Source: Falsiroseomonas oryzae (GTDB lineage Bacteria; Pseudomonadota; Alphaproteobacteria; Acetobacterales; Acetobacteraceae). From it: a DNA stretch of 43,904 nt. Shown piece after piece: positions 1-43,410 of the stretch (the first letter of the stretch is position 1; each line of letters starts with the position of its first letter). The notes beneath the pieces are model-generated. The model searched no databases. It was not told the origin of the DNA and saw only the letters and a list, made by a program, of their open reading frames with translations. A program made the translations under genes and the position numbers. The stretch covers positions 1 through 43,904 of the forward strand of contig NZ_JAPSMD010000012.1 of NCBI RefSeq assembly GCF_027856955.1, given 5' to 3'.

Positions 1-158
1 GCACGGGCGTGCAGCGGGTGGCCCCATTCCTGCGGCGCGACATCGCAGGCCGCGGCCGCGGCCAGCGCCGCCGAGGCGCCGGCGGCGCGCAGCACCTCGC
101 GGCGCGGCGGTTGCGCATCCAGGTCGGCGAAGCGGGGCAGGCGTTGATCCGGGGTCAT
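1..158 (-). CDS. N-terminus of a Tat-exported lipoprotein, possibly ActB of alternative complex III (partial)
   Basis: This is only the first ~52 codons; the gene runs off the left edge. The peptide starts MTPDQRLPRFADLD and then has PPRREVL, a small-residue stretch (RAAGASAALAAAAA) and a Cys, which is the layout of a twin-arginine signal ending in a lipobox. ActB-type molybdopterin-oxidoreductase-like subunits of alternative complex III begin with such a Tat-like segment, and an ActA-like pentahaem cytochrome and caa3 oxidase genes lie nearby. ActB is therefore a reasonable guess, but nothing beyond the signal is visible. Any Tat-exported cofactor protein remains possible. It is divergent from the cytochrome c gene starting at 290. 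Confidence 0.5.
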   Translation of the reverse strand, partial: MTPDQRLPRFADLDAQPPRREVLRAAGASAALAAAAACDVAPQEWGHPLHAR

Positions 159-289
159 GCTCCGGCGTCGATCACGGCTGGAAGGGTGGAGGCGGTCGCC
201 CCTGCCCTGACGCCGCGCGGTGCGCGATGGTTCCGCAACCGCCACCGTGCCGGGCACGTTGCCGGGCCGGTCCCTGCGCGGAGCCTGCG

Positions 290-823
290 TTGCGTCGTGC
301 CCTTCCCCTGGCCCTGCTGGCGATGCTCGGCGCCTGCGATGAGCCGTCCACACCTGCGCATCTTCGGATCGGCGATGCGGACGCCCGGCGTGGCCAGGTG
401 GTGCTGCGCGCCCATGGCTGCGGCGCCTGCCACAGCATTCCCGGCGTAGAAGGCGCGGTGGCCTGGGTAGGGCCGCCGCTGATGGAGTGGGCGCGACGCG
501 GCTATGTGGCGGGACGCCTGCCCAACGTGCCGGAGAACCTGGTGGCGTGGCTGCGCGATCCGCAGGCGATTTCGCCCGGTTCCGCCATGCCGAATCTGGG
601 CCTGACGGAGCGCGACGCGCGCGATGCGGCCGCGTACCTGTTCACCCTGGGCGCGACGCGGGTGGAGCCCGTCCCGGCCGGCATGGTGCTGGGCCCAGGC
701 GAGGGCGGGCTGCGCGCGGCGCCGCGCATCCGGCCGCGGCAGGACCGCCTGTCCGGCCATCAGCCGCAGCCCGGCAGCATCAGCGCCGGCGCGGCCTGGA
801 ACAGCACGGCCACCGCGGAATAG
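290..823 (+). CDS. Lipoprotein monohaem cytochrome c
   Basis: A c-type cytochrome of ~177 aa. The proposed TTG start at 290 has GGAG six bases upstream and gives a clean lipoprotein signal, MRRALPLALLAMLGAC, so the protein should be anchored on the periplasmic side. Starting at the ATG at 227 would add a Pro/Cys/Arg-rich leader that is unlike a signal. The single haem site CGACH is followed by a Met ligand candidate in PGSAMPNLGL, and the chain ends in the usual DAAAYLFTL helix. It probably carries electrons to the neighbouring caa3 oxidase, or is the ActE-like cytochrome of alternative complex III. The last ~60 bases overlap the end of the convergent gene at 760-1140, and the C-terminal tail past ~residue 125 looks non-conserved. 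Confidence 0.82.
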   Translation: MRRALPLALLAMLGACDEPSTPAHLRIGDADARRGQVVLRAHGCGACHSIPGVEGAVAWVGPPLMEWARRGYVAGRLPNVPENLVAWLRDPQAISPGSAMPNLGLTERDARDAAAYLFTLGATRVEPVPAGMVLGPGEGGLRAAPRIRPRQDRLSGHQPQPGSISAGAAWNSTATAE

Positions 824-30835: not shown

Positions 30836-30918
30836 GCCCGCCTGGCGGAACGGTAGACGCAGCGGACTTAAAATCTGTCGCCCTTGCGGGTGTGGGGGTT
30901 CGAGTCCCCCGGCGGGCA
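30836..30918 (+). tRNA. tRNA-Leu (anticodon UAA)
   Basis: An 83-base class II tRNA. The 7-bp acceptor stem is GCCCGCC (30836-30842) with GGCGGGC (30911-30917) and discriminator A at 30918. The anticodon loop is CTTAAAA with TAA at 30869-30871, reading UUA. A long variable arm (CGCCCTTGCGGGTG) and the GGTTCGAGTCC T-loop are typical of Leu. CCA is not encoded. The aldehyde dehydrogenase stop codon lies 5 bases downstream on the other strand. Confidence 0.97.
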
Positions 30919-30923
30919 TCTTC

Positions 30924-32270
30924 TCAGCGCTTGCCGATCAGCCGAGCCGTCAGCTTCTCGGCAATCGGCCGGCGTGGCAGGTCGAACAGCCGGGAGAGGC
31001 TCCAGCGACCGTGCCGCACACGCGCGCGCATGTCCGAGAATTCCAGGAAGCCGGCGCGGCCGTGGTAGCGCCCCTGGCCCGAGGCGCCGACGCCACCGAA
31101 GCCCAGCGCCGGGAAGGCCGCGTACTCCACGGCCCGGCCCGTGACGATCGCACCAGACCGCGTGGCCAGGGCCACCCTGTCCTCCTCGGCCCGGCTGGCG
31201 CCGAACAGGTAGATGGCGAGCGGTGGTGTGCGTGCGTTGATCCAGGCGAGCGCAGCGTCGAGGTTCGACACGGCCTCCACGGCGAGGACCGGTCCGAAGA
31301 TCTCCTCGCGACCGAGTTCCGAATCCGGTGTCGTCTGCGCCAGGGTCAGCGCACGATGCCGCATCGGACCGTCCGGGCCAAGCGGTGTGAGACGCGCGCC
31401 CTCGGTCAGGGCAGCAAGCCGCTGCATCTGCACGTCCGACGCAACGGCCCCCTCGGGCATCGCGATCCTGCTGTCGCGGCAGGCTGCCGCGAAGGCCTCC
31501 GGCGCATGGCCGACCAGCAGCACGGTGTCGGGCGCGATGCAGGTCTGTCCGGCATTCACCGCCTTGCCGACCAGGATGTTGCGTGCCGCCGCGGGAAGAT
31601 CCGCGCCGGGCAGCACGATGGCCGGACATTTCCCGCCGAGTTCGAGCGTCACCGGCACCAGGTTGCGCGCCGCCGCCTCCGCTACCTTGCGTCCTGTCGC
31701 CGTGCCGCCGGTGAAGACGAGATGATCCCAGGGCTGCGCGGCGAAGTCGGCGGCGACGGTCCGGTCGCCCTGGACGGTGCGCGCGATGTCCGGGCCCAGC
31801 GCCTCCTCCAGCACGGCGGCGACGAGCGCTGCGGTGCGCGGTACCGCCTCGGAGGGCTTCACGGCCACGCGGTTCCCGGCGGCGAGGGCATCCACGACAG
31901 GCCAGAGCGCCAGTTGCACCGGGTAGTTCCAGGGCGCGATGATGCCCACCACGCCCTTCGGTACCGGCTCCTCCCATGCTGAAGCCGGCCAGAACGGGAA
32001 GGGCACGTAGGCGCGCCGTGGCCTCGCCCAGCTGCGCAACCGCCGCCGGGAGTAGCGGGCGGCGTCGGCGACGACGAGTACATCCGCGAGCAGCGTGTCG
32101 AAACGCGAGCGGCCACCATAGTCTGCGTCCAGTGCGCCTGCGAAGTCCTCGGCCCGCGCCAGCAACCGCTGAGCCAGACGCGCGAGCAGGTCGCGCCGGC
32201 GCTCAAGGTCGAGCCGGCCATCCCGCATCTCCGCGGCGCGGAGTGCAGCGAGCGCCGCAGCGGGGGTCAC
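30924..32270 (-). CDS. ALDH3-type aldehyde dehydrogenase of the carotenoid operon (AldH/CrtNc-like)
   Basis: A 448-aa NAD(P)-dependent aldehyde dehydrogenase of the short ALDH3/coniferyl-aldehyde group. Catalytic Glu210 (LELGGK) and Cys244 (NAGQTCIAPD) are present, with APWNYP and FTGGTATG cofactor motifs and the ALDH3-like ending FGGVGASGQGRYHG...FLEFS. In the staphyloxanthin pathway an ALDH3-type AldH oxidises the terminal diaponeurosporenal to the acid; its place at the end of this operon suggests the same step. The GTG start at 32270 overlaps the hpnE stop (GTGA) and has GAGGG upstream. Confidence 0.87.
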   Translation of the reverse strand: MTPAAALAALRAAEMRDGRLDLERRRDLLARLAQRLLARAEDFAGALDADYGGRSRFDTLLADVLVVADAARYSRRRLRSWARPRRAYVPFPFWPASAWEEPVPKGVVGIIAPWNYPVQLALWPVVDALAAGNRVAVKPSEAVPRTAALVAAVLEEALGPDIARTVQGDRTVAADFAAQPWDHLVFTGGTATGRKVAEAAARNLVPVTLELGGKCPAIVLPGADLPAAARNILVGKAVNAGQTCIAPDTVLLVGHAPEAFAAACRDSRIAMPEGAVASDVQMQRLAALTEGARLTPLGPDGPMRHRALTLAQTTPDSELGREEIFGPVLAVEAVSNLDAALAWINARTPPLAIYLFGASRAEEDRVALATRSGAIVTGRAVEYAAFPALGFGGVGASGQGRYHGRAGFLEFSDMRARVRHGRWSLSRLFDLPRRPIAEKLTARLIGKR

Positions 32271-33502
32271 TGGTCCCTCGGCAGCGGCGCGCTGAGCAGG
32301 GCCGCGGCTGCCGCCTCGCCGGACCGGATCGCCGCCTCGATCGTCGCGGGCAGTTCGGGCAGCGTCCAGTCGCCGGCCAGTGCCAGGTTGGTCAGCGGCC
32401 TGCGGGGCGGCCGCGGTCGGGGCGACAAGGTGTGTCGCGGCGTCGCGCGCCGTTCCCGCACCGCGCGCGCGGGCGGCGGAGCGACCGGCCATGTGCCCGG
32501 CAGGCCGAAGCGGGTCGCAGCTTCCCGTACCTCTGGCCAGATGCGCACGGCCGCGGCCTCCTCCGAGAGGCTCACGGCATTATCGGCCGCACTCACCGTC
32601 ACCGAGATGCCGGCGGGACGCACCAGCACCCATTGCGCGAGGCCGCCGAGCAGACCGATGAAGCGAACCGGTCCTTCCGTTTCATGCGCGAAGTGGAGGT
32701 TGAGGATCGGCGCGTGCACCTGGGGCGTCTCGATCTCCGGCAGGAGCCGCCCGGTTTCCCAGGGTGGGACGGCGAGCAGCACGGAGTCCTCGGGTTGCAG
32801 TGCCATCACCTGCTCGCCGAAGTCGAGTGCGGCGACGCGATCGCCCTCGCGCACGAGGCCGCGCAGGCGCAGTCCGGCGCGGACGGTCGCGCCGTGGCAC
32901 CCAAGCGTCGCCACGGCGGGGGCGACGAGGTCAGGCCCCAGCCCGCGCATCGCGACGTAGAGGCGGGCGGCACCCGGACCGGCAAGCCGGCGCAACACGT
33001 TGCCGAGCAGGCGGGCCGAGGCTTCCTCCGCCGGCGTGTTCAGCGCGGCGACGGTCAGTGGTTCGACGAGGGTCCGCAACAGCGACGGATGAGCTGCGAG
33101 GGCCGCGGCCACGGTGCGGTCGGCGCCCGGCAGCGCGAGACGTCCGAGGGCGAACAGCCCGCCCAGCGTCAGGCCTACCGGCCGCCTGGCGCCGCGGATC
33201 CAGCCGAAGGGCGACAGCGCAACCTGACGTGCCGTGTGATCCGCGAGGTCAAGCACAGGCAGGCCATCAGGCTCCGGCTCGATCCAGGCGTCACGCGCGC
33301 CGATGGCGGCCAGGAAGCGCAGCGCCACGCGGTTCGCACCGAGCAGCGCATGGGTGCCGTTGTCCGTGCCGTCCGGTAGTGCACGTGCGCGGCCGCCGGG
33401 TGCCGGTGCGGCTTCGTAGAGCGTCACGCGATAACCGCCGCGCGCCAGCGCGAGCGCGCCGGCAAGCCCCGCCACGCCACCGCCGATCACATGGAACGTC
33501 AT
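32267..33502 (-). CDS. hpnE: Hydroxysqualene dehydroxylase
   Basis: A 411-aa FAD-dependent amine-oxidase-fold protein. The dinucleotide motif is FHVIGGGVAGLAGALALARGG, followed by LYEAAPAPGGRARAL; the C-terminus has LALAGDWTLPELPATIEAAIRSGEAAA, which binds FAD. HpnE reduces hydroxysqualene to squalene, the third step after HpnC and HpnD. The family normally stands beside hpnC and hpnD, exactly as here. ATGA overlap with the fused hpnC-hpnD gene, and GTGA overlap with the aldehyde dehydrogenase gene. Confidence 0.92.
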   Translation of the reverse strand: MTFHVIGGGVAGLAGALALARGGYRVTLYEAAPAPGGRARALPDGTDNGTHALLGANRVALRFLAAIGARDAWIEPEPDGLPVLDLADHTARQVALSPFGWIRGARRPVGLTLGGLFALGRLALPGADRTVAAALAAHPSLLRTLVEPLTVAALNTPAEEASARLLGNVLRRLAGPGAARLYVAMRGLGPDLVAPAVATLGCHGATVRAGLRLRGLVREGDRVAALDFGEQVMALQPEDSVLLAVPPWETGRLLPEIETPQVHAPILNLHFAHETEGPVRFIGLLGGLAQWVLVRPAGISVTVSAADNAVSLSEEAAAVRIWPEVREAATRFGLPGTWPVAPPPARAVRERRATPRHTLSPRPRPPRRPLTNLALAGDWTLPELPATIEAAIRSGEAAAAALLSAPLPRDQ

Positions 33503-35091
33503 GCCGGCGCCATGGCGACGAGCGCCATCCGAAACCGCTCCGCCGCGGTCAGCCTGGCGCGCTCGCGCGGCGCCTTGAAGCCCCGGCTCAGCATGCGGTC
33601 CAGGAGCCGGCGGTAACCCCACATCATGACCTTCGCCGGCTTCAGCGCGCGGCTGTCGTGGCGTGCAAGGTCGGCATCGGCCTCCGCGAAGCCCTCCAGC
33701 GCCTGTCGTGCCAATGCCTCGCAGCAGGCCACGAAACCGGGATGCGCCACGATCGCGGCCGCGTCGTCGGTCGCCACGCCATGCCGATCGAGCAGACTGC
33801 GCGGAACATACACGCGATCGATCGCCGCATCCTCCTCCGCATCACGGAGGATGTTGACAAGCTGGAAGGTGCGGCCGAGCGCCAAGCCGAAGCCTTCGGC
33901 TTCGGGTGCGCCGAAGATGCGCACGGCCATGGCGCCCACGCTGCCGGCCACACGACGGCAATACAGGTCGAGCGCGGTCTCGTCCGGCAGCCGCACCCGG
34001 CCTTCGGCATCCGTCTCCATGCCCGCGATCATCGCCGCGCATTCGCTGACCGGCAGAGCGAATTCACGACAGGCCCAGGCGAGTTCGACCGAGAGCGCAC
34101 AATCCGGTGTCGCCAGCTTGCCGCGCCACTCGGCCAGGAAGCGACGCTTCTCGGCAAGAGGCATCGCGGCATCCGCGATGTCGTCCACCGCGCGGCAGAA
34201 GCCGTACACCGCGAAGAGTGCCCGGCGCCGTTCGCCCTTCAGCACGGCCATGCCGCGCGCGAAGGACGATTTGGCGCGCGCTACCTGCGCTCGCACCACG
34301 GCTGCATCGGATGGCGGTCGGAAGACCAACGCGGCGAAGGCCGATGCGAAGTCGGAGCGGTCCAGTGCGACGCGGCTGTGCACCGGGTCGGCGGCGCGCA
34401 GGCGACCCAGGAGCTTCCAGGCCAGACCGAGCGTCACGGCCGACTGGTGCCGAAGCCGCGAGCGGAGAAGACGCGGCAGTGGCGCTGCGACGTTCAGCGT
34501 CGCTTCCACCCTGTCCAGCGCGGCATCCAGCACCGCACGGCGCCGCGGGTTGTCCGTGGCGAAGAAGGCTGACTCGCCGCCGGCCAGCGCTATCCAGGGC
34601 TCCGGCAGGTAGATACGGTCGAGCGTGTCGCGATCCGGCACAAGATCCTGCAGATGGTTCAGGATTTGCAGGGCGGTGCACAGCGCGTCGGAAGCGCGGT
34701 ATGCCGCCGCGCTCTCGCCGTGCAGCCGCAGCAGCATGCGACCGACCGGCTCGGCGGAGCGGCTGCAATAGGCTTCAAGCTCCGCCCAGTCCGCGTAGCG
34801 GCGCTGCGTCGCATCCTGGCGAAAGGCGGACAGCATCGCCCGCGCCTCGTCGGTGCCCACATCGGCCAGCGTAACGTCGAGCGTGGCCTCGAGCGCGTCC
34901 AGGCGCCGCAGCTTCTCCTCGGCCGTCAACGACGCGGAATCGGCGATGTCGTCGGCGGTCCGAACGACGCCGTAGAAGGCAAGCACCTTGGCGCGTGCCG
35001 CGCGGGGCAGCAGCAGCGAGGCGACCGGGAAGTTCTCTGAATCGTGGTCGCGTGTGGGCGGGCCGACCGCGATGGCCGTGGTGCCCTCCAT
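33499..35091 (-). CDS. hpnCD: HpnC-HpnD fusion: presqualene diphosphate synthase and hydroxysqualene synthase in one chain
   Basis: A 530-aa protein made of two trans-isoprenyl-diphosphate-synthase (squalene/phytoene synthase) domains with no stop or frameshift between them. Residues ~1-260 are HpnC-like: SENFPVASLLLPR, first Asp motif DDIAD (47-51), second motif NHLQDLVPDRD (145-155). Residues ~265-530 are HpnD-like: MAVLKGERRRALFAVYGFCRAVDDIAD (Asp motif 303-307; shown as the segments around it) and NILRDAEEDAAIDRVYVP (second motif 413-421). All metal-binding Asp residues are kept in both halves. HpnD condenses two farnesyl diphosphates to presqualene diphosphate and HpnC converts it to hydroxysqualene. 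The ATG at 35091 lies 7 bases after the glycosyltransferase stop; ATG 35112 is an alternative. Confidence 0.93.
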   Translation of the reverse strand: MEGTTAIAVGPPTRDHDSENFPVASLLLPRAARAKVLAFYGVVRTADDIADSASLTAEEKLRRLDALEATLDVTLADVGTDEARAMLSAFRQDATQRRYADWAELEAYCSRSAEPVGRMLLRLHGESAAAYRASDALCTALQILNHLQDLVPDRDTLDRIYLPEPWIALAGGESAFFATDNPRRRAVLDAALDRVEATLNVAAPLPRLLRSRLRHQSAVTLGLAWKLLGRLRAADPVHSRVALDRSDFASAFAALVFRPPSDAAVVRAQVARAKSSFARGMAVLKGERRRALFAVYGFCRAVDDIADAAMPLAEKRRFLAEWRGKLATPDCALSVELAWACREFALPVSECAAMIAGMETDAEGRVRLPDETALDLYCRRVAGSVGAMAVRIFGAPEAEGFGLALGRTFQLVNILRDAEEDAAIDRVYVPRSLLDRHGVATDDAAAIVAHPGFVACCEALARQALEGFAEADADLARHDSRALKPAKVMMWGYRRLLDRMLSRGFKAPRERARLTAAERFRMALVAMAPA

Positions 35092-35098
35092 GCGGATC

Positions 35099-36208
35099 TC
35101 AGGCCGTTCCATCGGGCTGGTAGGCGCGGCCCTTCCAGCCGGCCGGCTTGCCGAGCAGGCCGCGCACCAGCGCCGTCCACTGGATCGCCAGCGCCACCGC
35201 GACGGCGGCGGGGTGCAGGGGAATGGTCCACCACGGCTCACGCACCCGCAGCGTGACCGCCGCGCGCAGTGCAAGACCGAGGGCGAGGGCGAGGAAGGCC
35301 CAGGCTTCCGGCAGCAGGGCGATGGGCCAGAGGAAGGCGCCGGCCAGCATCACGGTCCAGATCGGCAGACCGACCGGCGTGGCCATGCCCTCCCGGGCAT
35401 TCTTGATGAAGCCGGCCCAGCTCTGCGCGAAGCCTGCATACATGCGGCATGTGGCGAGGGATGCGCCCTCCACCACTTCGGTGCCGAAGCCGGACGCCCG
35501 CATTCTGCGCGAGAGCTGCAGCGCATCGTGCAGGACGCCGCGGATCGCCGCATGACCGCCCGCGGCTTCGTAGGCCTTGCGCTCGACCATCATGAGTTGC
35601 CCGCAGGCCGCGGCCATGTCGGGACGCCGGGTGAAGGCGCGCCCGCCGCCAGGCAGGTAGCAGAACAGCAGGAAGTTGATCATCGGCACGGTCACTGCCT
35701 CGCCGAACGACCCGATCTCCTGCCGCGGCACGCCGGTGATCATGGCTGCCCCGGTGCGCGCCGCATGACCTGCCATGGTGGCCGCCGCGTCGGGCTCCAG
35801 CCGCACATCCGCATCGATGAACAGCAGGTGGGTTCCGCGCGCGGCCTCTGCCAGCCGCGCGCAGGCATGGACCTTGCCGGTCCAGCCAGGGGGCAGGGCG
35901 GGGGCCGTCTCGAGCCTCACGCGCGGGTCGCGCGTGGCGAAGCCGCGGACGATCTCGGCCGTGCGGTCGGTGGAGCCGTCGTCCATCACCACGACCTCAA
36001 CCTCCACCCCGCGCGCGGCCAGCGCATGTTCGAGGCAGGTGGCGATGTGGGCTTCCTCGTTCCGCGCCGGCACCAGGATCGACACCAGCGTGCCGCCTGC
36101 GGGTGTGCCGCGCGGTGGACGCACGAAGAAAAGGTTGGCGACAGCCATTGTCGCCGGGAAGGTCGCCAGCAGCAGCGCGATCCACGCCCAGGTGAAGTCT
36201 AGGTCCAT
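35099..36208 (-). CDS. Family 2 glycosyltransferase, CrtQ-like
   Basis: A 369-aa membrane-bound GT2 enzyme. An N-terminal helix (residues 7-29) precedes the GT-A domain with VSILVPARNEE, VVVMDDGSTDRT and the metal-binding DAD (Asp132 and Asp134 in FIDADVRLE), and three to four C-terminal helices follow. In C30 carotenoid clusters the CrtQ-type glycosyltransferase adds a sugar to the terminal carboxyl group. GGAGG lies seven bases upstream of the ATG, which shares one base with the acyltransferase stop (TGATG). Confidence 0.87.
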   Translation of the reverse strand: MDLDFTWAWIALLLATFPATMAVANLFFVRPPRGTPAGGTLVSILVPARNEEAHIATCLEHALAARGVEVEVVVMDDGSTDRTAEIVRGFATRDPRVRLETAPALPPGWTGKVHACARLAEAARGTHLLFIDADVRLEPDAAATMAGHAARTGAAMITGVPRQEIGSFGEAVTVPMINFLLFCYLPGGGRAFTRRPDMAAACGQLMMVERKAYEAAGGHAAIRGVLHDALQLSRRMRASGFGTEVVEGASLATCRMYAGFAQSWAGFIKNAREGMATPVGLPIWTVMLAGAFLWPIALLPEAWAFLALALGLALRAAVTLRVREPWWTIPLHPAAVAVALAIQWTALVRGLLGKPAGWKGRAYQPDGTA

Positions 36209-37035
36209 CAACCGGCCTCCTGCCGGGGGTCGTGACGTGGATCGTAGCGCTCGCCACGAAACGTCGCGGTCACGCGACGCCAGAGCTGAAAGATGCCGCC
36301 CATGCCCTCGCGGCCACGCAGCAGCGTCTCGAAACGCGCCGGGTCGCGCGAGATCGCGTCCGTGGCAAGCCGGTCCATTGTGGCGCCGAGCGCCGCCGAA
36401 AAGGCGTCGGCGCGCGCTTCGCGGTCGAGGGCTGCCAAGTGCGTGCCCTCGATCGGCTCGCCGAAGGCGCACAGCATCTCTGCCTTGCGCTCGGTCCAGA
36501 ACGGGTAGTCGAGGGCGAGCGGGAGGAAGACCGCATCGGGGGCGAACTCCGGCAAGCGCGTCATCCCCGGCGCGATCGGCACCGGACGCTCCCGCACATC
36601 GGAAAAGCGGCCGGGCGCGTTCATCCAGAGCATGCGCCCGGGGTCGGAAAGCACCTCCTTCGCCAGGCGCAGGAAGGCGATGGCGCCGCGCGGCGTGCCG
36701 GTCTCGACGCCGAAGACGCCGAGCCTGCGCATGAAGGGATAGCGATCCAGCGCCGCCTTATCCATCGGGATATACATGCGGCGCGACCGGAACAGCGCCT
36801 GCGACAGCAGCATGAAGGCGACGCCGTCCCACCAACCCGGATGGTTGGCGAAGACGACGAGCGGGCGATCGCCGTAGTCCCGCGGCATGCCCCAGCGCGC
36901 GATCCGCACGGCGCGCATGTGCTTGCGGAAGAAGCGCGAGAAGATGAAGTGGAAGAACGCCATGCGCCGCGGATCGAAGCGGCCGACGGGGTCTTCCGTC
37001 GGTGGCCTGGTCTCCTTCGGCGCGATGGCGTTCAC
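36208..37035 (-). CDS. PlsC-like acyltransferase, probably CrtO-like
   Basis: A 275-aa membrane-associated acyltransferase of the lysophosphatidate/glycerolipid family. The HX4D active site is His65-PGWW-Asp70 (FANHPGWWD), and the later segment VFGVETGTPRGA fits the substrate-binding block. PlsC-type enzymes usually have NHxxxxD followed by EGTR; here the second block is less typical (WMNAPGRFSD). Its place between CrtP-like and glycosyltransferase genes suggests it esterifies the carotenoid sugar with a fatty acid, like staphyloxanthin CrtO in role though not necessarily in family. Confidence 0.82.
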   Translation of the reverse strand: MNAIAPKETRPPTEDPVGRFDPRRMAFFHFIFSRFFRKHMRAVRIARWGMPRDYGDRPLVVFANHPGWWDGVAFMLLSQALFRSRRMYIPMDKAALDRYPFMRRLGVFGVETGTPRGAIAFLRLAKEVLSDPGRMLWMNAPGRFSDVRERPVPIAPGMTRLPEFAPDAVFLPLALDYPFWTERKAEMLCAFGEPIEGTHLAALDREARADAFSAALGATMDRLATDAISRDPARFETLLRGREGMGGIFQLWRRVTATFRGERYDPRHDPRQEAG

Positions 37036-37042
37036 GGCATGG

Positions 37043-38629
37043 CTACTCCGCCGCCGCGGCGAGTTCCGCGTCCCGCCGCCCGGCCTGCCGCGCGCGCTCG
37101 CTCATGCCACGGCCGCCGGCATCCTGATCCATCGAGTCTGCGGCGATCCAGCCGGACATCATCACCATCGGCATGCCCGGTCCGGGATGTGCGGCGCCGC
37201 CGCAGAGATAGAGACCCTTCACCACCTTGCTGCGGTTGCCCGGCTTGAAGGCGCCCATGAAGGTGCCGTGGCTGGCAAGACCGTATATCGCGCCATCCAG
37301 CACCTTGTAGCGGTTGTGGATGTCCACCGGGGTCAGTTGGCTCTCCACCACGATCCGCTCCTCGATGTCCTCCATGCCGCCGGTGCGCTTCAGCTTGTCG
37401 AGGATCTTCTGGCGATAGGGCGCGAACATCTTCGACCAGTCGTGGTGCGGACGCAGGTGTGGCGTGTGCACCAGGACATAGAGCGCTTCGCCGCCCGGAG
37501 GGGCGGAGGTGTCGTCGCTGCAGGACGTGGCGGCGAGATAGGCGGTGGGATCGGGTGCGGGCTCGCCCTTCTTGTAGATGGCGTCGAACTCCTCCTCCGC
37601 GTCGCGGGAGAAGACGAAGCAGTGATGCGCCAGGTGGTCGTAGCGCTTCTTCAGCCCGAGATAGAGCACGACGCCGCTGCAGGCGGGCTCGAAGCCCTTG
37701 CGGTCGTATTTCCGCGCCGGTTCGCCGCCGACCAGCTCGCGATAGGTGCGGATCGCATCCATGTTGGAGATGACGGCATCGCAGGCGATCCGCTCGCTCC
37801 CGGCAATGACGCCCTTCACGGCGCCATCCTGGATGTCGAAGCCCGTCACCTCGACGCCGGGCCGGAGATCGGCGCCGAGGTCGGCGGCGAGCTTGGCCAG
37901 TGCCTCCGCCACCGCTCGCGTGCCGCCGACCGGATACCAGACGCCCTCCGTCGCCTGCATGTCGGCGATCGAGGTCAGGACCGCCGGCGCCAGGTAGGGC
38001 GAGGACCCGACATACTGGCAGTAATGATCGAGCATCTGGGCCAGGCGGGCGTCGGGCACGTGGCCGCGGATCACCTTCGCCACTGTGCGGCCCATCTTCA
38101 GGCTCAGCACGTCCTTCAGCGTGTCGGGGTTGAGGTTCGCCTTGAAGTTCAGCGTGTCCGACATGCCTTCGACGGAGCGCCAGAAGAAGAAGCGCTCCGA
38201 GACGCCGTGCAGGTTCTCGGCCTCGGCCTGGAGCCGCCGATAGCCCTCGCCCATGCCCTTGCCGGGTACGAAGCGATCCATCTCGGCCGCCATGCGGTCG
38301 ACATTCTCCATCAGGTCGATCCGCGTCCCGTCGTCGAAGAAGCATCGCCATTGCGGGTCCAGCCGGATCAGTGGCAGGTCCTGCGCCTGGTCCCGGCCGG
38401 CCTCCGCGAAGATCCGCCGCAGCACGCGCGGCACGGTCAGGATCGTCGGCCCCATGTCGAAGCGGAAGCGGCCGGAGCCATCCGGGGCATCCAGATGCAG
38501 CACCGCCGCCTTGCCGCCCAGCCACGGGTTCTTGTCGAGCAGCGTCACCTTGTGGCCGCGTGCCGCAGCCACCGCTGCCGCTGCCAAGCCACCCAGGCCA
38601 CCGCCGACCACCACAACCCGCTCGGCCAT
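37043..38629 (-). CDS. crtP: CrtP-like carotenoid oxygenase/desaturase (CrtI superfamily)
   Basis: A 528-aa FAD-dependent protein of the CrtI/CrtN/CrtP superfamily. It opens VVVVGGGLGGLAAAAVAA and ends HPGPGMPMVMMSGWIAAD. Several inner segments resemble staphylococcal CrtP rather than CrtN: the HYCQYVGSSPYLAPAV block, the VISNMDAIRTYRELV block and FEPACSGVVLYLGL. CrtP-type enzymes oxidise the terminal methyl of C30 carotenes to the aldehyde. The assignment is by remembered family motifs, not an alignment. The ATG at 38629 has AGGGGAG eight bases upstream. It is followed after 7 bases by the acyltransferase gene. Confidence 0.82.
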   Translation of the reverse strand: MAERVVVVGGGLGGLAAAAVAAARGHKVTLLDKNPWLGGKAAVLHLDAPDGSGRFRFDMGPTILTVPRVLRRIFAEAGRDQAQDLPLIRLDPQWRCFFDDGTRIDLMENVDRMAAEMDRFVPGKGMGEGYRRLQAEAENLHGVSERFFFWRSVEGMSDTLNFKANLNPDTLKDVLSLKMGRTVAKVIRGHVPDARLAQMLDHYCQYVGSSPYLAPAVLTSIADMQATEGVWYPVGGTRAVAEALAKLAADLGADLRPGVEVTGFDIQDGAVKGVIAGSERIACDAVISNMDAIRTYRELVGGEPARKYDRKGFEPACSGVVLYLGLKKRYDHLAHHCFVFSRDAEEEFDAIYKKGEPAPDPTAYLAATSCSDDTSAPPGGEALYVLVHTPHLRPHHDWSKMFAPYRQKILDKLKRTGGMEDIEERIVVESQLTPVDIHNRYKVLDGAIYGLASHGTFMGAFKPGNRSKVVKGLYLCGGAAHPGPGMPMVMMSGWIAADSMDQDAGGRGMSERARQAGRRDAELAAAAE

Positions 38630-38711
38630 CAGTTCCACTCCCCTGTCCGGGACCCAATCATGAATAGCACAACGGCTCGTCTCGCCACCGGCCGAGGCCG
38701 CGGAGATTGTC

Positions 38712-40316
38712 TCAGCGGTCCGGGCTGTAGGCCGCCGCCGGGGTGGCCGCCGACAGATCGCCGGCGGCGGCCGGACGGCTCGGCGCGCCTGTCAGGCCGA
38801 GGTCTTTCGCCATCAGACCTGTCGTGATCCGCGCGCCCTCGTAGATCACCGGCAGCCCGCTGCCGGGATGGGTTCCGCCGCCGACCAGATAGACCCCCTC
38901 GACATCCCGGAACCGGTTGCCCGGGCGGAAATAGAGCATCTGCGGGAGTTCGTGCGAGAGGTTGAAGGTTGCGCCGAAGCCCACGGCATAGTCGCTCTCC
39001 CAATGCTGCGGGGCGACGACGCGCTCGTATCGGATGTGCGGCCGCAGATCGGGCAGGCCCAGCGCCTTGAGGCGGTCCAGCGCGACCTCCCGGTAGCGGG
39101 CCGTCTGTGCAGGCCAGTCGGGCTGCTTCAGCAGGTTCGGCACGGGCACCAATACGTAGAGCGCCGTATGTCCCGCGGGGGCCATCGTCGGATCGGTCGC
39201 ACCGGCATGCTGCACGTACATCGAGGGTACTTCCGGGATGGTGCCCCCTTCGATCTCCGCGATGTTCTCGCGGTAACCCTCGCTGAGCAGCACCGTGTGG
39301 TGCGCGAGTTCGGGGCATGGCCGGTCCAGCCCGAGATACAGCATGAAGGTGGAGCAGGAATACCGGGCCTTACGGATCTTCTCGTCCGACCAGTCGCGCC
39401 GCAACTCGTCGGGGATGAGCCGCGGCGCGGCATGCGCGAAATCAGCGTTCAAGACCACCGCATCGGCGTCGTGCCGTGTGCCACCGCAATCCACGCCGCG
39501 CGCGCGCCGTCCCTCGAAGGCGATACGGTCCACAGCGGAGGACAAGCGGATCTCCACGCCCAAACGCTCCGCCACGCGCGCCATGGCGTGCGAGACGGCG
39601 CCACAGCCGCCGATCGGGTGGAAGATGCCGTGATCGTATTCCAGGTAGGACAGGATGGTGAAAAGGGACGGGCAGCGGAACGGGCTCATCCCGAGGTACT
39701 TGGTCTGAAACGAGAAGGCGAGACGTACGCGCGGGTCGCGGAAGTGGCGGGCCAGGTCGCGATCCACGGTGGACCACGGGCGCAGCAGCGGCAGCGCACG
39801 AATCATGTCCCACTTGACCATGTCGAGCGGCCCTTCGAAGGCGCGCTCAAGGACCGGGCGGAACACATCGAGCTTGGCCCGGTTCTCCGCCATGAACGGG
39901 CGCAGCCCCTTGGCATCCCCGGGGGCGAACTTCGCGAGCTCCGCCTGCATCCGGTCGAGGTCGGACGAGCAGTCCAGCTGCGTTGCGCCGCCACCGCTCT
40001 CGAACACCAGGCGATACTGCGGATCGAGGCGCCGGAGATCCACCTCCGCCTCCAGCTCCGCGCCGCAGCGCTGGAAGATTTCCTTCAGGATGCGCGGGTA
40101 CAGGAAGAAGGTCGGCCCGAGATCGAAGCTGTAGCCTTCCGGCGATGTGAGCGTACGGGTTCGGCCGCCGATCACGGCGTCCTTCTCGAAGATCGTGACG
40201 CGGGCCCCGGACTCGGCCAGCAGCATCGCGGCGGCAAGGCCGCCGGGGCCGGCTCCGATGATCGCAACCTTCGTGCGCGGGCGGTGGAGGGCAGGTGAGG
40301 CGAGAACGGTGTTCAT
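38712..40316 (-). CDS. crtN: CrtN-like carotenoid (C30) desaturase (CrtI superfamily)
   Basis: A 534-aa FAD-dependent desaturase. The start MNTVLASPALHRPRTKVAI leads into IGAGPGGLAAAMLLAESG and VIGGRTRTL; FDLGPTFFLYPRILKEIF and the C-terminal GGGTHPGSGLPVIYEGARIT are superfamily marks. It is first in the operon. Because the cluster makes squalene and has no phytoene synthase or GGPP synthase gene, it should desaturate a C30 substrate (squalene or diapo-carotenes), i.e. act as CrtN. It could also be the oxidase and the neighbour the desaturase. A GNRA-type hairpin lies 17 bases upstream. Confidence 0.82.
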   Translation of the reverse strand: MNTVLASPALHRPRTKVAIIGAGPGGLAAAMLLAESGARVTIFEKDAVIGGRTRTLTSPEGYSFDLGPTFFLYPRILKEIFQRCGAELEAEVDLRRLDPQYRLVFESGGGATQLDCSSDLDRMQAELAKFAPGDAKGLRPFMAENRAKLDVFRPVLERAFEGPLDMVKWDMIRALPLLRPWSTVDRDLARHFRDPRVRLAFSFQTKYLGMSPFRCPSLFTILSYLEYDHGIFHPIGGCGAVSHAMARVAERLGVEIRLSSAVDRIAFEGRRARGVDCGGTRHDADAVVLNADFAHAAPRLIPDELRRDWSDEKIRKARYSCSTFMLYLGLDRPCPELAHHTVLLSEGYRENIAEIEGGTIPEVPSMYVQHAGATDPTMAPAGHTALYVLVPVPNLLKQPDWPAQTARYREVALDRLKALGLPDLRPHIRYERVVAPQHWESDYAVGFGATFNLSHELPQMLYFRPGNRFRDVEGVYLVGGGTHPGSGLPVIYEGARITTGLMAKDLGLTGAPSRPAAAGDLSAATPAAAYSPDR

Positions 40317-40333
40317 GGGGACCCGCAGCCAGA

Positions 40334-40363
40334 TGCCCCCGGCGCCGCAAGGCGCAAGGGGCA
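40334..40363 (-). terminator. Hairpin between the acyl-CoA dehydrogenase gene and crtN
   Basis: On the plus strand a 6-bp stem (TGCCCC/GGGGCA), a symmetric 2x2 internal loop and a 5-bp stem (GCGCC/GGCGC) close a GCAA loop; on the transcribed minus strand the loop is TTGC. It begins 11 bases after the acyl-CoA dehydrogenase stop. It may end that transcript or form part of the crtN leader. Confidence 0.45.
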
Positions 40364-40374
40364 CGATCCCACGT

Positions 40375-42015
40375 TCATGCCGCAGCCGGCCGCGTTGCGG
40401 AAGGGGAGGTGCCGGCCGCCTGTTCGATCTCCAGGCAGCGCGCTGCGGCGCGCGGCAGCAACCGTGTCAGGTAGAACGCGGCCAGAGACTCGCGATCCGG
40501 GTCTGCGGCTGCTGCGCGGGTGAGCATCCAGCCACCCAATGTCCAGCCGCAGGCCTCCAGGTAAGCGACCGCCAGCGATTGAGCGGCGTCCGGATCGCGG
40601 GCTTGCAGCGCGATCATCGTGTCGGTTGCGGCGCCCAGCTGTGCAGCGGCGGCAGCCAGGCGCGGCTCCCCTGCCAGATCGGCAAGCAGCGCGCGCATGG
40701 CGACCCCGCCGTCCTTGGCGACCTTGCGCACCACCAGGTCGATCGCCTGGATCCCGTTGGTGCCCTCGTAAATGGGGGCGATCCGGGCATCCCGCAGGAC
40801 CTGGGCGGCGCCGGTATCCTCGACGAACCCCATGCCGCCATGCACCTGGATGCCGAGCGAGGCGACGTCCACCCCGCGATCGCTGCACCACGCCTTCACG
40901 ACGGGGATCAGCAGCGCGAGGCGCTCCGCGGCCGCCGCATCGCCCAGCATGTGATGGCGGTCGAGCGCGGCGGCGGCCTCCAGCGCCAACAGGCGGCCCG
41001 CCAGGGTGACCGCCCGCATTTCCATCAGCATCCGGGCCACGTCCGGGTGCTGCGCGATGGTGCGTCCGCCCTGCACCCGCTGCGCCGCGTAGTCCTCTGC
41101 AAGCTTGAGTGCGCGTGCCCCTTGCCCGACGCCCTGGACCCCGACCGCCAGCCGCGCCGCGTTCATCATGGCGAACATGGCCTGCAGGCCGCGGTTCGGT
41201 TCGCCGACCATTTCCGCCTCGGCCCCCTCGAACAGCATCACGCAGGTCGGCGAGGCGTGGATCCCCATCTTCTTCTCGAGTCCCCCGCAGCGCAGCGCGT
41301 TGCGCCGTCCGTCCGGCAGAATGCGGGGGGCAGCGAACAGCGAGATCCCGCGCGAGCCCGGCGGCGCGTCCGGTAGTCGGGCCAGAACCAGGTGGAGGAT
41401 ATTCTCCGTGGTCTCATGCTCGCCCCAGGTGATGTAGATCTTCTGACCATGCAGCGCGTAGCGCCCATCGCCCAGCGGTTCGGCACGCGTGCGGATGGCG
41501 CCCAGGTCGGACCCGGCCTGCGGCTCCGTGAGGTTCATCGTGCCCGGCCACGCGCCGGAGACGAGCTTCGGCAGCCATCGCGCCTGCTGGTCGGGGGAGG
41601 CGAAGCCGGCCAGGAGGTCGATTGCACCGGCTGTCAGGATCGGGCCGAGGAAGAATGCCATGTCAGCCGCGGAGGCGAGTTCGACCAACGCGGTCCAGAT
41701 CGCGTGCGGCAGGCCCTGACCGCCATGCTGCTCCGGCGCCGCCACCCCCTGCCATCCGCTGTCAATCCAGGCACGCATCACCTCGTGGTAATGCGCTGGC
41801 ACCGTGACCCTGCCATTGGCGTACGCCGCGCCCTCGCGGTCAGCCTGCTGCCATCCCGGCGCGAGCACCTCCGTGCAGAAGCGGTCCGCTTCGCGCAGCA
41901 GCGCCTCGATGTCGTCGCCGCCGAGTGGGGCGCCGGCCGCCGCCGTGAGCCCGGGCAGATCGACCACGCGCGTGAGCCCGAGGATGAGGTCGTCGGCAGC
42001 CGTCGGGAGTGTCAT
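40375..42015 (-). CDS. Acyl-CoA dehydrogenase, DmdC-like (3-methylmercaptopropionyl-CoA dehydrogenase family)
   Basis: A 546-aa flavoprotein that introduces the alpha-beta double bond in an acyl-CoA. FAD-binding segments LTEPQAGSDLGAI and YITWGEHETTENILHLVLAR and the ending IYEGTNGIQAIDLVVRK with the catalytic Glu are clear. The long form, with GIHASPTCVM, MFAMMNAARLAVGVQG and an extended C-terminal domain (~115 residues), matches the DmdC/FadE-like group that also handles methylmercaptopropionyl-CoA. No other DMSP genes are present, so the true substrate is open. It overlaps the DAO gene by 4 bases. Confidence 0.9.
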   Translation of the reverse strand: MTLPTAADDLILGLTRVVDLPGLTAAAGAPLGGDDIEALLREADRFCTEVLAPGWQQADREGAAYANGRVTVPAHYHEVMRAWIDSGWQGVAAPEQHGGQGLPHAIWTALVELASAADMAFFLGPILTAGAIDLLAGFASPDQQARWLPKLVSGAWPGTMNLTEPQAGSDLGAIRTRAEPLGDGRYALHGQKIYITWGEHETTENILHLVLARLPDAPPGSRGISLFAAPRILPDGRRNALRCGGLEKKMGIHASPTCVMLFEGAEAEMVGEPNRGLQAMFAMMNAARLAVGVQGVGQGARALKLAEDYAAQRVQGGRTIAQHPDVARMLMEMRAVTLAGRLLALEAAAALDRHHMLGDAAAAERLALLIPVVKAWCSDRGVDVASLGIQVHGGMGFVEDTGAAQVLRDARIAPIYEGTNGIQAIDLVVRKVAKDGGVAMRALLADLAGEPRLAAAAAQLGAATDTMIALQARDPDAAQSLAVAYLEACGWTLGGWMLTRAAAADPDRESLAAFYLTRLLPRAAARCLEIEQAAGTSPSATRPAAA

Positions 42016-43163
42016 GCCATCTGGTCCTGTGTGATCTCGTCCAGCAGCCCCGCAGGTGGTGCCGCCTCGCCGGCCGCCCATCCCGGCAGCGCAGCGGCAA
42101 TCGATGGATCGCTCAGGCTGCGCGCAAGCGCGAGGCCGAGCAGCGGACCGAACTTGAAGCCGTGGCCGGAGAAGCCGGACATCACCCAGCTTCGGTCGCT
42201 GATCGGCTCCAGGATGAAGCGCTCGAGCGGCTCCACGTCATACCAGCAGGCCGAGGCCGATACCACGCGATAGCGCTCCAGATCACGGATCCGATGGCGC
42301 GCCAGGTCAAGGATCGCGTCCGATTCGGCGGGCGTGACGCTGCGTGGGCCGTCCGGGTCCGCGGTCGCCGCGAAGCGATGATCACCGATCTTCAGCGGCG
42401 TGCCGGCGACCGGCGGCACGGCGTAGAAGCCGCCATTCTCTGCCAAGTCCAACAGCATGGGAGCGCACGCCCAGGCTTCGGCACGGTCCGGCGGCGGGGC
42501 GAGCCGCACGACCACCTGCCGCGTCGGCCTGACCCGTCCCGCAATCCCTGGCAGAAGGCGCGGCCCCCAGGGACCGGCGGCAACGACGAGCAGGTCGGCC
42601 GACCTCGTGGTGCCATCGTCCAGGGCGACAAGTGCGCGGGCGGCGTCCACGGATACGGCGCGGCCACGCTCGATCGGGACACCTCGGTGCCGGAGCAGGC
42701 GCGCAAGCGTGTCCACGATCTTCCGGGCCAGCAGGACGCCACCCGACGCGATGCGGAAGGCATCCGCGATGCCGTCTGACCGCAGGAAGTCGTAGGCCAC
42801 CGCGACGTCGTCGGCCGCCAGGCTCTCGACAGCGTATCCGTCCGCCAGCAGTGCCGCGCGGCTTGCCGGCAGCCAGCTGCCGGTCGATCCCGCAAGGGCT
42901 AGGACTCCCGTCTGCACATAGTGGCGCTCGCCGGCTTCGCGGAACAGCAGGTCCCAGGCGCCGTACGCCGGGTCCACCATCCGCATGTAGCCGGTATGGG
43001 CGCCATAGGCGTGACGGATCAGCCTGTGGTCGTCCACCGAGGAGCCGCGCGGATTGGGGACGTCGTCCTGCTCCAGCAGGCGGACGGCGAAGCCCGCACG
43101 CGCCAGCGCCCAGCCGGCAGAGAGCCCCATGATTCCCGCGCCGAGGACAAGAGCCGTTCGCAT
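42012..43163 (-). CDS. FAD-dependent oxidoreductase of the DAO/sarcosine oxidase-like family
   Basis: A 383-aa amine or amino-acid oxidase-type flavoprotein. It has the FAD motif ALVLGAGIMGLSAGWALARAG, the SSVDDHRLIRHAYG segment that in sarcosine oxidase (MSOX)-like enzymes follows the covalent-flavin region, and a C-terminal MSGFSGHGFKFGPLLG that closes the FAD site. It most resembles monomeric sarcosine oxidase/N-methyltryptophan oxidase-like proteins; the amine substrate is unknown. It leads a two-gene operon with the acyl-CoA dehydrogenase. The ~250 bases upstream (43164-43410) show no gene and should contain its promoter. Confidence 0.88.
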   Translation of the reverse strand: MRTALVLGAGIMGLSAGWALARAGFAVRLLEQDDVPNPRGSSVDDHRLIRHAYGAHTGYMRMVDPAYGAWDLLFREAGERHYVQTGVLALAGSTGSWLPASRAALLADGYAVESLAADDVAVAYDFLRSDGIADAFRIASGGVLLARKIVDTLARLLRHRGVPIERGRAVSVDAARALVALDDGTTRSADLLVVAAGPWGPRLLPGIAGRVRPTRQVVVRLAPPPDRAEAWACAPMLLDLAENGGFYAVPPVAGTPLKIGDHRFAATADPDGPRSVTPAESDAILDLARHRIRDLERYRVVSASACWYDVEPLERFILEPISDRSWVMSGFSGHGFKFGPLLGLALARSLSDPSIAAALPGWAAGEAAPPAGLLDEITQDQMA

Positions 43164-43410
43164 GGGCTCAGTCTTGCCTGATGGACGTCCCTTGGCGAGA
43201 GGGGAGGGCCTGCGGCCCGCCGTCCGCCGCGTCCGACCCTTTGGCCGGCGGCGAGGCGGACATTGGGCCCGCCCCGCCATCCGTCAGCGCCGCCTGACCC
43301 GCGAGCCGTCCGGGTGTGCCCACCGAAGCTGGGCATGACGCAAACCATGAGTCGCCGGGCCACGGGATGCAGACCGGAATCGCCCTGAGCGTGCCCAGGA
43401 CGATACCGGT

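Follow-up and report, generated by a model that had tools for sequence, protein, structure and literature searches.

A fused HpnC-HpnD protein encoded in a C30-carotenoid-type gene cluster of Falsiroseomonas oryzae

Why are the genes for two steps of squalene synthesis joined in one reading frame in Falsiroseomonas oryzae, and which pathway does the encoded protein supply? These questions are raised by a gene, here called hpnCD, that lies in a stretch of 43,904 nucleotides (positions 1 to 43,904 of contig NZ_JAPSMD010000012.1, assembly GCF_027856955.1; hereafter the window). What HpnD, HpnC, and HpnE each catalyse is well established (PMC12583986, PMC10152446, available parts). Based on sequence comparison, we propose that hpnCD arose from adjacent genes and very probably codes for a bifunctional enzyme that would convert farnesyl diphosphate (FPP) to hydroxysqualene and would serve a C30-carotenoid cluster and not hopanoids. 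An earlier reading made from the DNA letters alone (the sequence-only reading) had taken the fusion to be undescribed. That cannot be maintained because the available portions of a 2017 paper already report fused hpnCD in subdivision-2 Acidobacteria, in the Actinobacteria Actinopolyspora and Blastococcus, and in Rhodospirillum centenum (PMC5462960). What is new here is the C30-carotenoid-type cluster in which the fusion is set.

The hpnCD frame runs on the minus strand from 35091 to 33499 through 530 codons with no stop inside and ends in TGA; an in-frame ATG upstream at 35112 is an alternative start that would add seven residues. The Pfam model SQS_PSY (PF00494) matches the translated protein twice, and the Asp-rich motifs DDIAD (residues 47-51 and again 303-307), NHLQDLVPDRD (145-155), and NILRDAEED (413-421) are all in place, each half having the fold and the two Asp-rich motifs of the squalene/phytoene synthase superfamily. 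The continuous frame, the two complete domains, and the four motifs described in the sequence-only reading were thus confirmed, with the addition of the strand, which it had left unstated. Among 37 aligned fused sequences, Asp 51, 149, 153, 303, 304, 307, 417, and 421 are invariant and Asp 47 and 48 are nearly so. When the halves were scored separately, the best model for residues 1-258 was HpnC (TIGR03464, 217 bits versus 81 for HpnD) and that for residues 259-530 was HpnD (TIGR03465, 235 bits versus 103 for HpnC). Aligned with each other, the halves share 32% identity across 157 columns. An AlphaFold2 model built from the 37-fusion alignment is a confident two-domain model, with a mean predicted local distance difference test score of 92.6 and a predicted template-modelling score (pTM) of 0.90. 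Its closest solved folds are CrtM-type dehydrosqualene synthases, the HpnC structure 4hd1 ranking 8, while by sequence the first domain matches 4hd1 and the second matches 8is6 (CrtM). On these comparisons the bifunctional HpnC-HpnD protein of the squalene pathway that had been suggested earlier is very probable.

Of the 15 genomes of the genus, own included, 13 encode the fusion at full length with no stop inside it, the matches beginning at query residues 1-11 and ending at 527-530. As for the other two, in one (G005) the contig ends within the HpnC half, and the other (G002) is without the fusion; no close CrtI_a orthologue was found in G002, the best match being 34% identical. The stop or frameshift between the halves that the sequence-only reading had considered was not seen. 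Beyond the genus, fused domains were found in at least four of the 20 genomes searched from the family (G015, G017, G019, and G029) and, among 24 additional genomes from the class, in at least one (G048). When 385 genomes from across the class were sampled, at least 15, own included, had both domains in a single open frame; in one of these (G236) the frame is cut off inside HpnD by the end of the contig. Records named as Roseococcus, Roseomonas, and Microvirga also have the fused frame, and split hpnC and hpnD genes remain common among the sampled genomes. Fusions therefore occur across Alphaproteobacteria beyond the cases in print. Azospirillum brasilense, where one tblastn piece covered both genes, was ruled out as a fused case since a stop codon divides hpnC from hpnD there, although the two genes share a reading frame.

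The genes around hpnCD point to the pathway that is served. The start codon of hpnE, which is directly downstream, overlaps the hpnCD stop codon (ATGA), and clustered with these genes are two CrtI-family oxidases, a glycosyltransferase, an acyltransferase, and an aldehyde dehydrogenase, that is, the gene set of a C30-carotenoid cluster of the CrtNPQO type, the Pfam match of the acyltransferase being just below its cut-off. Ten loci from the genus that contain the entire fusion were retrieved, and 9 of them have the order DAO oxidoreductase, acyl-CoA dehydrogenase, CrtI_b, CrtI_a, acyltransferase, glycosyltransferase, HpnCD, HpnE, aldehyde dehydrogenase; in this count the DAO gene of L030 lies beyond the fetched stretch, the end gene is cut in some loci, and G013 and G014 are left out. 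The aldehyde dehydrogenase likewise adjoins hpnE in 9 of 10. The same order is found in G029, Roseococcus, and Rubritepida. It is kept in G017 with no match to an aldehyde dehydrogenase. Two loci from Microvirga keep the core that extends from CrtI_b through HpnE, with no matches to the acyl-CoA dehydrogenase, the DAO oxidoreductase, or the aldehyde dehydrogenase, and a Microvirga ossetica megaplasmid has this core with an aldehyde dehydrogenase on the opposite side. In G010, G019, and Roseomonas HF4 the crt oxidase genes are elsewhere in the genome, away from the fusion; loss of the crt genes in G010 and G019, which the locus alone had led us to suspect, was thereby ruled out.

Squalene-hopene cyclase (TIGR01507) was detected in 23 of the 59 genomes searched overall and in none of the 15 genomes of the genus, own included. 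On this count we reject a hopanoid operon for the genus, and the window fusion probably feeds no hopanoids there. Thus, the sequence-only reading was right to place the fusion in the squalene pathway but overlooked both the carotenoid-type setting and a genus without a detected hopene cyclase. Elsewhere fusions are seen in both settings, near a cyclase (G015, G156, G260, Acetobacter sacchari, and others) and in carotenoid clusters. Among 15 fused genomes reached through named loci, two of which (G421 and G428) look like duplicates of G029 and G305, a cyclase is present in 8 and a full-length match to the HpnE model of at least 241 bits in all 15. The HpnE proteins in or linked to carotenoid-cluster fusions score 241-264 bits (the window, G419-G422, G426, and G427), below the cut-off of 283, and those adjoining a hopene cyclase score 387-440 bits (G423, G424, G425, G429, and G430); one Tectomicrobia HpnE outside a carotenoid cluster also scores only 243 bits. 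In the HpnE tree the carotenoid-cluster genes form a clade of their own (18 rows, 100% by the Shimodaira-Hasegawa-like approximate likelihood ratio test, SH-aLRT), and by sequence they constitute a distinct HpnE subfamily.

Related clusters are known in other bacteria. In A. brasilense Sp7, deletion of either hpnCDE or crtNPOQ abolishes carotenoid, and the crtNPOQ deletion accumulates squalene, as stated in the accessible portions of that report (PMC13274349). Its crtNPOQ cluster (L207) is homologous to that of the window: CrtI_a is 64-66% identical to AMK58_25215 (64% in the cluster comparison) and CrtI_b is 57% identical to AMK58_25220. A C30-carotenoid gene set is also known in Methylobacterium extorquens (PMC10448405, available part). 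So far as the available sources go, the clusters of Azospirillum, Methylobacterium, and the plasmids of Palleronia LCG004 and Limimaricola variabilis resemble that of the window in having two CrtI-family oxidases, an acyltransferase, and a glycosyltransferase fed by HpnC, HpnD, and HpnE, and an aldehyde dehydrogenase is beside the crt genes in Azospirillum, Palleronia, and Limimaricola as it is in the window. Unlike in the window, hpnC and hpnD are separate in all four and, in Azospirillum and Methylobacterium, are at another locus. Compared with the route of separate HpnC, HpnD, and HpnE, the window has the same domains, the same gene order, and HpnE directly downstream, but HpnC and HpnD form one polypeptide and none of the three components reaches its curated equivalog cut-off. 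The fusions described in PMC5462960 are, like the window gene, a single gene of about double size made of hpnC and hpnD, in one uninterrupted frame with C before D. They come, however, from a study of hopanoid genes, whereas the window fusion stands among C30-carotenoid-type genes in a genus where no cyclase was detected; the acidobacterial and actinobacterial cases were compared by their description in the part of the paper available. In the open-access literature on hpnCD fusions, C30 carotenoids, HpnCDE, and Roseomonas and its kin, as far as its accessible text extends and with subscription journals mostly outside this scope, no report places the fusion in a C30-carotenoid cluster.

As the most likely explanation, we propose that the C-terminal HpnD domain would condense two FPP to presqualene diphosphate, that the N-terminal HpnC domain would convert this to hydroxysqualene, and that the neighbouring HpnE would reduce hydroxysqualene to squalene. 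Squalene would then enter the C30-carotenoid pathway of the same cluster through CrtN-like desaturation, CrtP-like terminal oxidation, oxidation to the acid by the aldehyde dehydrogenase, glycosylation, and acylation. The fusion itself would have arisen by loss of the boundary between neighbouring hpnC and hpnD genes with the order C-D retained. The sequence-only reading had correctly noted that the HpnC domain comes first and had called this order inverted relative to the reaction; the order carries no special meaning. In all 68 split loci with both genes on the same strand hpnC precedes hpnD, 64 of these pairs being adjacent and 17 of the 64 in the same reading frame; in one further locus of the 69 the two genes are on opposite strands. 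HpnC is likewise first in all 49 fused loci examined, 5 of which repeat another locus. Since split operons carry the same order, and since the fusion would have arisen from adjacent operon genes, the order of the domains is inherited from the operon and has no bearing on catalysis.

Table 1. Coordinates in the window of hpnCD and the genes clustered with it, and the evidence for each.
Feature	Position	Strand	Basis
Fused hpnCD gene, 530 amino acids	33499..35091	minus	Open reading frame, Pfam, NCBIfam, structure model
HpnC-like domain of hpnCD	residues ~15-252		
Linker of hpnCD	residues ~253-269		
HpnD-like domain of hpnCD	residues ~270-524		
HpnE-like hydroxysqualene dehydroxylase	32267..33502	minus	TIGR03467 260 bits, cut-off 283; own clade in HpnE tree
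Aldehyde dehydrogenase, probable terminal aldehyde-to-acid step	30924..32492	minus	PF00171
Family-2 glycosyltransferase, putative CrtQ-type role	35099..36208	minus	PF00535; likely start 36208
Lysophospholipid-acyltransferase-like protein, putative CrtO-type role	36208..37035	minus	PF01553 22.7 bits, just below cut-off 23
CrtI-family oxidase (CrtI_a), probably CrtP-type from gene order	37043..38638	minus	TIGR02734 386 bits
CrtI-family desaturase (CrtI_b), probably CrtN-type	38712..40364	minus	TIGR02734 503 bits; likely start 40316
Acyl-CoA dehydrogenase	40375..42081	minus	Profile match; place beside cluster conserved
DAO-family flavin adenine dinucleotide oxidoreductase	42012..43280	minus	Profile match; place beside cluster conserved

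How often the fusion arose was examined with trees, all of them quick and with SH-aLRT as the only support. The single-domain trees (97 rows, 42 of them fused) imply at least 10 changes between the fused and split states for HpnC and at least 11 for HpnD. By the approximately unbiased (AU) test, run on such quick trees with long branches and with the constrained group named by fusion status, a single origin of all fusions is rejected (p 3e-4 for the HpnC tree and 3e-48 for the HpnD tree). The same test did not reject a group uniting only the window's 28-row clade and the two Acetobacter-type fusions (p 0.32 for HpnC and 0.09 for HpnD), and for this reason we are unsure of the exact number of origins. 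A concatenated HpnC and HpnD tree of 73 rows, without the long branches, has at least six fused/split changes and places the window fusion in a 27-row clade in which all are fused (99%). Nested in it is a 22-row subclade (100%), again all fused, of Roseomonads and Microvirga, nearly all of which are in or tied to carotenoid clusters. The sister of the 27-row clade is a pair of split genes from the Palleronia and Limimaricola plasmids (95%), which are themselves in C30-carotenoid-type clusters. Because the split hpnC and hpnD of Acetobacteraceae hopanoid operons are far from the window clade on this tree, the carotenoid version of hpnCD was probably acquired horizontally. A tRNA-Leu (TAA) at 30836-30918 adjoins the aldehyde dehydrogenase end of the cluster and could be where the cluster was inserted if it was acquired laterally.

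Several observations weigh against the proposed role of hpnCD. Taken as single domains, the HpnC half at 217 bits does not reach the TIGR03464 equivalog cut-off of 250, nor does the HpnD half at 235 bits reach that of TIGR03465 at 278.6; the whole protein clears both (307 and 302 bits, respectively) only because HMMER sums the two domains. HpnE at 260 bits is also under the TIGR03467 equivalog cut-off of 283. Since each half and HpnE score in this way, the fused HpnCD and its HpnE appear as a diverged subfamily. Two members of the same fused clade (L078 and L079) have a hopene cyclase roughly 5 kb away, and nothing matching crt was found in the stretch fetched around them. The count of 0 of 15 for the cyclase was obtained with a single model, at E 0.001, on draft genomes. 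The CrtN and CrtP assignments follow gene order in the available part of the M. extorquens paper, without a tree, and the A. brasilense genetics does not bear on the fusion itself because hpnC and hpnD are split in that organism.

It is about an even chance that the fusion is neutral, that is, that two independent enzymes came to share one chain by repeated accident without any channelling, and this is compatible with the role in the carotenoid cluster proposed above. The adjacency of split hpnC and hpnD, with C first, and the frequency with which they share a frame mean that fusions are easily made, and the repeated fused/split changes on the concatenated tree together with the persistence of split forms agree with this. 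On the other hand, the C30-cluster subclade is fused in 22 of its 22 sampled rows and the predicted two-domain arrangement is confident (pTM 0.90), which weigh against neutrality but are compatible with it. Channelling of presqualene diphosphate within the fusion is possible. A further and rather unlikely scenario is that of a carotenoid-specialised squalene branch, in which HpnCD would pass presqualene diphosphate internally alongside a co-diverged HpnE, repeated fusion would reflect selection for channelling, and the supply from the hopanoid operon would have been replaced in some Roseomonads. The hopanoid operons of Pseudoroseomonas coralli and Roseomonas E05 (L191 and L192) have hpnD, hpnE, and the cyclase with no hpnC detected, and the carotenoid clusters of these two strains have the fusion but not hpnE. 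In Roseomonas nepalensis the hopanoid operon (L193), without hpnC and hpnD, has only hpnE and the cyclase, and the fusion, located elsewhere, is the sole HpnC and HpnD detected.

CrtM, of the staphyloxanthin pathway, has the fold of the hpnCD halves. It is a single-domain enzyme that makes dehydrosqualene as the first step of a C30-carotenoid pathway with no HpnE step. The fusion could also be CrtM-like, making dehydrosqualene directly, with the HpnE-like neighbour acting as another desaturase and squalene bypassed. CrtM-type enzymes are indeed the top structural matches of hpnCD, the HpnE-like partner is below its cut-off and in a clade of its own on a long branch, and in three genomes the fusion is in a crt cluster without an adjoining HpnE. 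However, a single-domain CrtM leaves the second domain of the fusion unexplained, those three genomes (P. coralli, Roseomonas E05, and R. nepalensis) have a high-scoring HpnE elsewhere, all 15 fused genomes have the HpnE match described above, and in the homologous A. brasilense pathway it is squalene that builds up when crtNPOQ is deleted (PMC13274349, accessible portions). We therefore regard a CrtM-like activity as improbable. It is, if anything, a shade less probable that one domain lacks catalytic activity and has a scaffolding or regulatory function instead. Although both halves are under their own equivalog cut-offs, the motif Asp residues are conserved in both across the 37 fusions, and the fusion is the sole HpnC/HpnD detected in R. 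nepalensis (G425), Roseococcus pinisoli (G419), and G421, whose genomes have a cyclase and HpnE. If hopanoids or pigment are made in P. coralli, Roseomonas E05, and R. nepalensis, the HpnC half would be active in all three and the HpnD half in R. nepalensis; both halves would have to work in the latter if its pathway does, because no other HpnC or HpnD was detected there. That hpnCD is a sequencing or assembly artefact in which a stop or frameshift was erased has practically no probability: the source genome is fragmented into 1040 contigs, but the same full-length frame in 13 of 15 genus genomes and in the named Roseococcus, Roseomonas, and Microvirga records rules out a sequencing error.

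Some further observations concern the neighbouring genes and the source genome. The CruG and HpnB models match the window glycosyltransferase below their cut-offs, and homologues of the acyltransferase-like protein are annotated as lysophospholipid acyltransferase. The acyl-CoA dehydrogenase and DAO oxidoreductase genes (40375-43280) stay beside the pigment cluster in several genera and do so even in G010, whose crt genes are elsewhere. The C30-carotenoid genes of Palleronia, Microvirga, Azospirillum, and Gluconobacter (L205, L206, L207, and L210) each have a gene for a small DUF2141 protein beside or near them. The last of these loci is on a Gluconobacter thailandicus HD924 plasmid, typed as conjugative, with two crtI genes, an acyltransferase, a glycosyltransferase, DUF2141, and an aldehyde dehydrogenase; no hpn gene is annotated in the 21 kb of it that were displayed. 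In the source genome, contig C2 (54652-79169) has a separate gene whose best model is phytoene synthase, at 406 bits with a cut-off of 500, and three CrtI-family matches, which suggests that a C40-carotenoid system exists alongside the C30 one. A third, partial gene of the squalene/phytoene synthase fold is at a contig end (C277:3-515). By eye, its neighbour resembles superoxide dismutase, and a similar gene is divergent from A. brasilense hpnC (L204:3969-5066).

The repeated fusion of hpnC and hpnD is a ready system for studying substrate channelling in a short pathway, and hpnCD is a possible one-gene source of hydroxysqualene for the engineering of squalene or C30 carotenoids. Since no cyclase was detected in any of the 15 genomes of the genus, our findings suggest that hpnC and hpnD, which are often taken to indicate hopanoids, can be dedicated to carotenoid synthesis. 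Hopanoid genes are stated for all Acetobacteraceae type strains in the available part of one report (PMC8776678), and carotenoid-type hpn genes could underlie part of such hopanoid calls in this family.

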